DNA from: a bacterium
GTDB lineage: Bacteria; Electryoneota; Electryoneia; Electryoneales; Electryoneaceae
Assembly: GCA_020444265.1 (NCBI GenBank)
Contig: JAHLLH010000001.1
Coordinates: forward strand, 682,001 to 746,000
DNA length: 64,000 bases
Direction of reading: 5' to 3'
Below, piece after piece: positions 50,939 to 56,065 of the stretch (position 1 is the stretch's first letter; every line of letters starts with the position of its first letter). The notes under the pieces were generated by a model that was not told the DNA's origin, did no database searches, and was given only the letters and a program-made list of their open reading frames with translations. The position numbers were made by a program, and so were the translations under genes.

Positions 50939-51118
50939 AGAATCATCTCCTGGTTGAGTGCTGGAAAGTACAATTTCTTCCCCCCCGGTCCCAACCCGAT
51001 CGCAGCGAACGGAGCTCCTTTCTCCGGGAAGCTTGGTTCTTCACTTTACTTGGGTTATGGTGCCGATTAGATTTACAAGCGAAAAGTTCGACGAGCCTAA
51101 ACCTTGAAAGGTCCCCCC

Positions 51119-51454
51119 ATGAGTGATCGACCTCGGACGTATATTAAGAGAGACGTGGTTGAGCAGACAGCCCATAACACCGGTTTCGACCCGAAGGTCG
51201 TTGCACCCATCGTGGACGCGACTTTTTCAACGCTGCGCGAGATGATCGTGACCACCCCGGGTGAATGCAGGATTGAGATTCGTGATTTTGGCGTGCTGCA
51301 AGTGAAAAACACGGCACCCAAGCCGAAAGCCCGTAACCCTCGGAAACCAGGTGAAGAGATCTTTATTCCGGCTCGAAGGAAAACCCATTTCCGGCCGGGG
51401 CGCAAGATCAAGGAAGCCCTGCAAGTCCCGCTTGATGAACTGAAAAAATCCTGA
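51119..51454 (+). CDS. HU/IHF family DNA-binding protein
   Basis: A 111-residue histone-like protein. The helical N-terminal half TYIKRDVVEQTAHNTGFDPK, VVAPIVDATFSTLREMI is followed by the beta-arm region IEIRDFGVLQVKNTAPKPKA, RNPRKPGEEIFIPARRKTHF, RPGRKIKEAL. It dimerises and bends DNA. The ATG at 51119 is preceded by AAAGG; a TTG at 51104 is less likely. The selenoprotein ATG lies 16 bp after its stop, so the two are probably on one transcript. Confidence 0.93.
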   Translation: MSDRPRTYIKRDVVEQTAHNTGFDPKVVAPIVDATFSTLREMIVTTPGECRIEIRDFGVLQVKNTAPKPKARNPRKPGEEIFIPARRKTHFRPGRKIKEALQVPLDELKKS

Positions 51455-51470
51455 AAAGGGTTCGGAAGCG

Positions 51471-51698
51471 ATGGATATCCATATTGAGTACTGTGTTGTT
51501 TGAAACTATTACCCACATGCCGCCAGGTTGGCGGATGAACTCAAACAACAGATTCCCAACTGCACCATCCATCTTGTAAAAGGCTCGGGTGGCATCTTTG
51601 ATGTGCACGCAGATGGTGAGTTGGTCTATTCCAAATCCAGCACCTTTCGATTTCCCCTCCCCGGAGAAGTTGTTCAGAAACTCCAGAACCCCGGATAG
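51471..51698 (+). CDS. SelW/Rdx-family selenoprotein with in-frame TGA read as selenocysteine
   Basis: A 75-codon gene interrupted only by TGA at 51501-51503. The reading is MDIHIEYCVV-U-NYYPHAARL, then LADELKQQIPNCTIHLVKG, GSGGIFDVHADGELVYS, KSSTFRFPLPGEVVQKLQN. This matches the Rdx (SelW/SelT/SelH) family, with CxxU (C8, U11) exactly where SelW has its redox motif, followed by 'gGxFeVxxdGelvxsr' and 'rFP'. A hairpin at 51516-51537 fits a bacterial SECIS. The ATG follows GGAAG. It is likely a thioredoxin-fold oxidoreductase. A TGA-stopped annotation would miss it. The alternative is a pseudogene, but the downstream frame is fully conserved. Confidence 0.87.
51516..51537 (+). promoter_or_regulatory. 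Putative bacterial SECIS element
   Basis: CAT-g-CCGCC (51516-51524), loop AGGTT (51525-51529), GGCGG-ATG (51530-51537): eight base pairs with one bulged G. The apical loop begins 21 nt after the TGA (ending at 51503) and carries GGU, as in the E. coli fdhF loop AGGUCU. This spacing and loop fit what is known of bacterial SECIS hairpins, which SelB recognises. Confidence 0.78.
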
Positions 51699-51717
51699 AG
51701 AGTCCGGGGTTTTCTTC
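51687..51717 (+). terminator. Rho-independent terminator overlapping the selenoprotein stop codon
   Basis: AACCCCGGA (51687-51695), loop TAGAGAG, TCCGGGGTT (51703-51711), then TTTTCTTCT. The TAG stop (51696-51698) is the first part of the loop. It ends the HU-selenoprotein unit. Confidence 0.88.
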
Positions 51718-51767
51718 TACCTCCACTCCTTCGCATCTTCCTCTCAGATCACGACCACGAGGAGTCC

Positions 51768-52214
51768 ATGGCCAATCTTCCCACCCACCTTGTCTGCCCG
51801 CATTGCGGTCAGGAAATAGAAAAGTATCGTAACCCTTTCCCTACCGTTGACGTACTTATCCGTTACAGAGGGGGCATTGTCCTGATCGAACGAGGCAATC
51901 CACCCCATGGCTGGGCGATTCCTGGAGGCTTCATGGAGTATGGTGAATCCGCGGAAACGTGTGCGAGAAGGGAAATGATGGAAGAAACCGGGCTTGAACT
52001 TGACAACCTGGAGCTGTTTACCGTGCGATCTGAACCGGATCGTGACCCACGCTTCCACACAGTAACAATTGTCTTCACAGCAGATGGTCTTGGAGAACTT
52101 CAAGCCGGAGATGATGCAGACAATGCTCGGGTTTTCACTCCTGACAATGTGCCAGAACAGATGGCATTCGATCATGGTGATGTGCTGACTCTTTATAACA
52201 GCTCGGTCCGCTGA
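51768..52214 (+). CDS. Nudix hydrolase with N-terminal zinc-ribbon segment
   Basis: 148 residues. An N-terminal CPHCG segment suggests half a zinc ribbon. The Nudix box is intact: G54-x5-E60-x7-R68-E69-x2-E72-E73-x-G75 in GGFMEYGESAETCARREM and MEETGL. It hydrolyses a nucleoside diphosphate linked to some moiety; the arrangement 'RYRGGIVLIERGNPPHGWAIPGG' resembles ADP-ribose or NADH pyrophosphatase-like enzymes. Its ATG lies beyond the terminator of the selenoprotein unit. Confidence 0.92.
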   Translation: MANLPTHLVCPHCGQEIEKYRNPFPTVDVLIRYRGGIVLIERGNPPHGWAIPGGFMEYGESAETCARREMMEETGLELDNLELFTVRSEPDRDPRFHTVTIVFTADGLGELQAGDDADNARVFTPDNVPEQMAFDHGDVLTLYNSSVR

Positions 52215-54432: not shown

Positions 54433-55494
54433 TTACAGACTCTCTATGATCTGCATGATATATTTATGCCTGATCATTCTTTCTCTCTTATTGTTAACTG
54501 CCTCTTTTGCAGCAATTGTATATTCCTCTGGCACCGATTTTTCGAACTCCAACAACTTCTCTCTTAATTTACCAAGCTTTTCAGTTTTTGCTTCATCGTC
54601 CCATTCATACAACACACACATTAGGCTAAACCAATTTGACTTGTTTCTCCAATATGATTTTTCTGGAAGTTTTAGGGCTTTATAGATTGCCGCTAGCAGC
54701 TCCAATACATCCACTATTACATCCTTATACTCAAAATCACTACTATATAACTCAAGATTTTTCTTTACGTTATCATTCCTATTATAATACCCACCTATTA
54801 TCGTCGACATCAAGTTCAGTGTAAACATTAAATGCACTTTTCTACTCAATTCATACGAAGTAAATATTTCATCATCTAGCATCAAACTTTTGTACGACTT
54901 TACTTTCTTCTTTTTAGCCCAAAGTTTAGACTCTTTCGGGACATTTGGATCCCATATCATAGGTTTATCTTCATCGTCGTTCAAGTTTAACTCACCACTA
55001 AGGAGTTTCGCGACGATCATAAACTCCGAAGGGGCAAATTCAGTGGCTAATTTTTCTATCATCGTCAGCGAAAAATATGTTCTGTTGAGTCTATTAAATA
55101 TATCAATTATCCTCTTATCATTATCATGCATGTCAAGTTCAATAATTGCCACTTTATATTTGAAAAAATCACCCTTCTCTTCTTCACTCATTTCCTCGTA
55201 AAACCGTCCTTCTACATCAAATTTATTCTCTATAAATTCCATTATACTACCTAGCCTTTGCTGGCCGTCAACCACACAATACGTCGCTTGCATAGTATTA
55301 ACGTCAATCGTCCCCCTTGATATGAATATCTGCGGGAAGGGATATCCCAAAAGAATTGTTTTTATAAATTCTTGTTTATGTAGGTCACGCCAAACCATAT
55401 TTCTCTGAAAATATGGAGATAGCACCAATTTTTCGTCTTTAATATCATTTATAATACTAAGAAGGCTATCCGACCTTACTTCATAGTTCAACAT
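54433..55494 (-). CDS. DUF262 family protein (ParB/GmrS-like N-domain, no HNH domain)
   Basis: 353 residues. DUF262 landmarks: VLSPYFQRNMVWRDLHKQEF (residues about 24-43), VVDGQQRLGSIMEFIE (74-89) and IFNRLNRTYFSLTMIEKLAT. DUF262 is the NTP-dependent domain of GmrSD and many anti-phage proteins. The usual C-terminal DUF1524 HNH nuclease is absent. The gene lies in a very AT-rich stretch (27% G+C at 54721-54780) unlike its flanks, which suggests recent transfer. AAGGAGGGG precedes the ATG. It follows the nucleotidyltransferase-like gene by 13 bp. Confidence 0.87.
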   Translation of the reverse strand: MLNYEVRSDSLLSIINDIKDEKLVLSPYFQRNMVWRDLHKQEFIKTILLGYPFPQIFISRGTIDVNTMQATYCVVDGQQRLGSIMEFIENKFDVEGRFYEEMSEEEKGDFFKYKVAIIELDMHDNDKRIIDIFNRLNRTYFSLTMIEKLATEFAPSEFMIVAKLLSGELNLNDDEDKPMIWDPNVPKESKLWAKKKKVKSYKSLMLDDEIFTSYELSRKVHLMFTLNLMSTIIGGYYNRNDNVKKNLELYSSDFEYKDVIVDVLELLAAIYKALKLPEKSYWRNKSNWFSLMCVLYEWDDEAKTEKLGKLREKLLEFEKSVPEEYTIAAKEAVNNKRERMIRHKYIMQIIESL

Positions 55495-55507
55495 CGCTTA
55501 CCCCTCC

Positions 55508-56065
55508 TTACGGAACAATCCTTTTTTGACTCTCTTCAAATAACTGATAAGAGGCGAATATTCCAATACTAATATGCGAAAACAAAGTAGAATGCCTTCT
55601 TGACAGGCTTGACATCTTCGTTTCCCAATACCGCTTTAAATTAGAAGTTGGAAGTAAATCAGGGCGCAACCAACCTCTTGCATGATACAACAAAAAGGAA
55701 TGAAAGAGAGAATCACCATTGTCTTTTCTCGGAAACTTGCTGGTATCACTAAGATATCGAGTATCCTTACAAATTTCCTGTGTGTAATTATTGTATAAGC
55801 GAGAATCAACAACTGCTAAATCCAGGTCGGACACTGCAGCTTCAAATTTTCTCTTTTTTGTTGGACTAACTCCGAAATGAGCAGATCCGATAATATAGAT
55901 AGAATAAATGTCGACTTCGAATATACTTGCTACATCTTGGAGTATAGAGTATATAACCGACTCATTTCCTGCTACTATTGATGAGGGAAGAACTTTGAAA
56001 GCTTTTTTTACAATCTGATCTTTAGCTAGTTTTTCATTAAGAACTGCTGAAATATCTTTAAGCAT
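55508..56065 (-). CDS. Nucleotidyltransferase-fold protein paired with DUF262
   Basis: 185 residues. A nucleotidyltransferase-like site is visible: IYIIGSAHFGVSPTKK (G60-S61), and SDLDLAVVD with D80 and D82, the hG[GS]...DhD signature of the MNT/Pol-beta superfamily. The spacing between GS and DxD (18 residues) is longer than usual. The rest (YHARGWLRPDLLPTSNLKRY, then FSHISIGIFASYQLFEESQK) is unassigned. It is AT-rich like the DUF262 gene and starts 18 bp after the VWA gene stop. A toxin, antitoxin or signalling role is conceivable; nothing is proven. Confidence 0.7.
   Translation of the reverse strand: MLKDISAVLNEKLAKDQIVKKAFKVLPSSIVAGNESVIYSILQDVASIFEVDIYSIYIIGSAHFGVSPTKKRKFEAAVSDLDLAVVDSRLYNNYTQEICKDTRYLSDTSKFPRKDNGDSLFHSFLLYHARGWLRPDLLPTSNLKRYWETKMSSLSRRHSTLFSHISIGIFASYQLFEESQKRIVP

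Follow-up and report, generated by a model that had tools for sequence, protein, structure and literature searches.

Genes and features at the locus

The window, as we call the whole 64,000-nucleotide stretch of DNA analysed here, contains a short reading frame between a gene for an HU/IHF-family DNA-binding protein and a Nudix gene, with a hairpin resembling an intrinsic terminator overlapping its stop codon (Table 1). The original prediction had placed at this position a SelW/Rdx-type selenoprotein gene whose frame is broken only by a TGA at codon 11. Translation reproduced that frame, with the TGA as its sole internal stop, and both neighbours were found to be real genes by their Pfam domains. 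With TGA read as selenocysteine (Sec, U) the product is MDIHIEYCVVUNYYPHAARLADELKQQIPNCTIHLVKGSGGIFDVHADGELVYSKSSTFRFPLPGEVVQKLQNPG*, which carries near its N-terminus the redox motif Cys8-Val-Val-Sec11 (CVVU), a C-x-x-U at the SelW/Rdx redox site, and downstream of it the GGIFDV, DGELVYS and FRFP segments that had also been pointed out. The expectation that standard gene callers would truncate the gene held for the mechanical open reading frame list, which starts it at TTG 51528, past the TGA, and so gives only a fragment (51528-51698) without the redox motif.

Table 1. Features of the selW locus in the window and selenocysteine genes of the host genome
Feature	Coordinates	Strand	Details
HU/IHF-family DNA-binding protein gene	about 51119..51454	+	PF00216; stops 16 nt before selW ATG
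Predicted selW-like (Rdx family) selenoprotein gene	51471..51698	+	75 aa; ATG 51471, TAG 51696-51698; read-through translation, profile matches, homologues with same frame and TGA
In-frame TGA, predicted selenocysteine codon	51501..51503	+	last position of C-x-x-U motif; TGA here in U-type homologues, Cys in Cys-type homologues
Bacterial SECIS hairpin	51520..51534	+	6-bp stem CCGCCA/UGGCGG, apical loop GGU 51526-51528; folding and covariation, n=39 homologues
Intrinsic-terminator-like hairpin	51685..51713	+	12 bp then T-rich, overlaps selW TAG; fold -19.3 kcal/mol
Nudix gene, downstream of selW	51768-52214		PF00293
selA	C9:52221-53573		541.7 bits, curated cut-off 267.9
selB	C12:162087-163949		331.5 bits, curated cut-off 242.25
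selC, tRNA-Sec	C9:373165-373256		anticodon TCA; 59.3, curated cut-off 47
selD	C4:219402-220331		362.4 bits, curated cut-off 125

Alignment of the read-through product to the Rdx and SelW families, proposed as a check of the original prediction, gave matches to three models. The Rdx profile PF10262 aligned with residues 3-72 (E=1e-20; profile positions 2-73 of 74) in a match that spans the TGA, NCBIfam NF041051 with residues 3-71 at 92.1 bits (cut-off 88), and TIGR02174 scored 61.2 bits (cut-off 34.2). NF041051, described as a SelT/SelW/SelH family (seleno)protein model, is named for Campylobacter but scores the present protein above its cut-off. Four solved Rdx proteins, namely Atu0228 (2FA8), SAV_2001 (3DEX), MIEN1/C17orf37 (2LJK) and mammalian selenoprotein W (2NPB), are homologous by sequence across most of residues 3-72, although the similarity is modest (E values from 2e-7 to 7e-3). 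MIEN1 and the bacterial solved Rdx proteins have Cys in place of Sec. A PHROGs search with selW returned zero matches, so nothing ties the gene to phage.

Conservation of the in-frame TGA among homologues

A survey of 193 genomes with PF10262 showed that 39 of 45 Rdx matches contain exactly one in-frame TGA, and in all 36 of these that were parsed (three of the 39 were not) the TGA falls at the U position of CxxU. The column of Sec11 holds either U or C across the homologues. A separate genome collection provided four further loci, three with U (L008-L010, from three named metagenome-assembled genomes, MAGs) and one with C. Loss of both TGA and Cys at codon 11 in close relatives, together with decay of the frame, had been named as evidence that would count against the gene; homologues within the host's own bacterial family and beyond it keep the TGA.

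The alternative that the TGA reflects a pseudogene or an error of sequencing, with codon 11 of a Cys-type Rdx gene changed from TGT or TGC to TGA, draws on the existence of full-length Cys-type Rdx proteins in five of the 193 genomes (G135, G108, G165, G171 and G086), and on the single-codon difference being the only defect. The Cys-type proteins have a longer C-terminal end reading LGH(S/T/V)D than the U-type, and one genome (G165) encodes both types. However, this reading is refuted by the recurrence of the same TGA in independent genomes of many genera and in the three named MAGs, and it is further opposed by constraint on the frame past the TGA, by the covariation of the hairpin and by the selenocysteine machinery in the genome (see below), which together leave it with a negligible share of the probability.

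It is just as improbable that the shorter protein starting at TTG 51528 is the real product and that the part upstream is untranslated. That fragment appears in the mechanical open reading frame list, but its product would have neither the redox motif nor the N-terminal stretch that is conserved, and the Pfam match begins at residue 3 of the longer product. The ten codons upstream of the TGA are kept as protein in homologues, following the pattern M-[KD]-[IFV]-x-I-x-Y-C, and substitution at the three codon positions among homologues is 0.21, 0.29 and 0.60 before the TGA and 0.33, 0.23 and 0.55 after it, alike on both sides and as in coding sequence.

A covarying SECIS hairpin downstream of the TGA

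The stem of the hairpin at 51520-51534 starts 16 nt past the UGA and its apical loop lies 22 nt past it, in agreement with each of the four constraints that the published model of bacterial SECIS elements (bSECIS) sets (PMC13188914); the minimum free energy of the segment 51501-51545 is -11.5 kcal/mol. When synonymous recodings of the window sequence were folded, 428 of 5000 folded as well as the native sequence and 102 of 5000 retained all six base pairs of the stem together with the loop G. Taken alone, the window sequence has a hairpin that stands out only moderately from what its protein would allow, and the case for a SECIS element rests on comparison.

In the 39 homologues 90.6% of stem cells are paired, compared with at most 47.4% after sliding of the partner strand; in 17 cells both sides of the stem have changed. 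The covariation score of the stem is 0.293 against 0.123 in shuffled alignments and at most 0.110 in slid ones. The clearest covarying pair is formed by the third bases of two Ala codons, which occur as GCC/GCG (17), GCG/GCC (9) and GCA/GCT (4). Both residues are Ala in 34 sequences, of which 31 are Watson-Crick at this pair where shuffling gives an expectation of 12.7, and 0 of 20,000 shuffles reached as high a count, these figures being guides rather than probabilities since the shuffles ignore relatedness. Both alanines stay the same under these synonymous exchanges, which therefore speak for selection acting at the RNA level and not at that of the protein. A Ser residue encoded on the loop uses an AGY codon in 24 of the 24 homologues that have it and never TCN, which fits a requirement for the loop G.

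A longer stem in the window that would pair the UGA itself (GUUGUUUGA with UCAAACAAC) is not kept in relatives and was therefore discarded as a component of the conserved SECIS. The Rfam SECIS_1 model (RF00031) found no match in the host genome but none in the control genomes either, and its result was accordingly given no weight; scanning 51000-52200 against Rfam at permissive settings also gave no hits.

Selenocysteine machinery in the host genome

The original prediction implied that the organism has SelA, SelB, SelC and SelD, and in the host assembly (4.33 Mb, 94% complete) each of the four genes was indeed recovered over its cut-off (Table 1). The host selD has an in-frame TGA of its own at the active site, giving CAGU within RCAGUASKLDP, which makes a predicted selenoprotein of SelD too, a situation already known; with selW and selD both carrying an in-frame TGA, Sec decoding would be needed for at least two genes. 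A search with TIGR01591 found no formate dehydrogenase alpha subunit. Across the survey selA scored over the cut-off in 37 of the 39 genomes with a UGA-containing selW versus 66 of the 154 others (Fisher p=1e-9, uncorrected for relatedness), and the two without detected selA are MAG-like assemblies that are 86-88% complete. One member of the family (G004, 80% complete) yielded neither a selW nor a real selA.

Any in-frame TGA could in principle be decoded as an amino acid other than Sec, through a reassigned code or near-cognate suppression. Nothing specific favours this here, and it is scarcely credible in a genome that holds selA, selB, selD and a tRNA-Sec with a UCA anticodon, that keeps a conserved SECIS hairpin, in which the further TGA-containing candidate recovered, SelD, has its TGA at a known Sec site, and that uses TGA as the ordinary stop of both the HU gene (51452-51454) and the Nudix gene (52212-52214).

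Gene neighbourhood and transcript

Upstream of the HU gene lies a divergent sugar-nucleotidyltransferase/hexapeptide gene. HU and selW are adjacent in four of the five other genomes of the family that have selW, and the order divergent gene, HU, selW is kept in these four (G001, G002, G005 and G006; loci L069, L070, L071 and L073); in G003 selW does not adjoin HU within the 13.8 kb read. The terminator-like hairpin at the selW stop codon was found by folding and is absent from the list produced by a consensus terminator scan. Together with the adjacency of HU and selW it suggests a transcript that ends at selW, and judging from this neighbourhood the two genes are probably co-transcribed. A bolder reading of the conserved pair, that the selenoprotein is expressed with the nucleoid protein and perhaps acts on it, is a long shot; if it were true, the organisation of the chromosome in the family would respond to selenium supply or to redox state.

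Elsewhere in the window, an island of about 1.6 kb on the reverse strand (54433-56065) has a G+C content of 35-37% against 46-63% around it. It carries a GmrSD_N (DUF262-type) gene (PF03235, E=6e-20) adjoining a 185-aa frame without a Pfam match, which are possibly an acquired defence-like pair.

Proposed function and relation to known selenoproteins

Judged from its sequence and those of its homologues, 51471-51698 has a probability of about 97% of being a functional selenoprotein gene of the bacterial selW-like kind. The SelW/Rdx-type selenoprotein reading is supported by the open frame and its motif, by a TGA that homologues keep, by a hairpin that covaries and by a full set of Sec genes, and the UGA at codon 11 is almost certainly read as selenocysteine. 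Ribosomes on the mRNA (probably an HU-selW transcript) would reach this UGA, where SelB with Sec-tRNA(Sec) would bind the SECIS hairpin, leading to placement of Sec rather than termination; SelA would make the Sec, with SelD as its source of selenophosphate. Translation would then continue to the TAG at 51696. The product would be a small protein, presumably with a thioredoxin-like fold, in which the Cys8/Sec11 pair could form a selenenylsulfide, and it most likely acts as a thiol oxidoreductase. At the sequence level the decoding step is strongly supported, and from there we infer Sec insertion, co-transcription, fold and redox activity.

Of the selenoprotein families known from bacteria, the SelW-like proteins are one of the most abundant. 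Reports of them from bacteria go back to 2005 or earlier (PMC1088965, PMC1794560, PMC2398784): a Sargasso Sea survey recorded 48 SelW-like genes (PMC1088965), a 2006 listing included them among the selenoproteins of bacterial genomes (PMC1794560) and the GOS survey recorded 427 (PMC2398784). Their function was called unclear, with the CxxU motif suggesting a redox role and an interaction with glutathione having been reported (PMC1088965). An earlier report describes selW genes that annotation had missed altogether (PMC4607533). As tested, the gene described here differs from the bacterial SelW-like selenoproteins of these reports (PMC1088965, PMC2398784, PMC1794560) only in its organism and in its neighbourhood, with HU upstream and a terminator-like hairpin on the stop codon. 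Given so well known a family the find is correct but ordinary, of a type that simple gene callers easily miss, and it offers a clean case of a gene truncated by simple open reading frame calling with loss of its active site. Existing knowledge of SelW-like proteins is left unchanged; what the find settles, as far as sequence can, is the annotation of one gene, and it marks the host's bacterial family as one predicted to decode selenocysteine.
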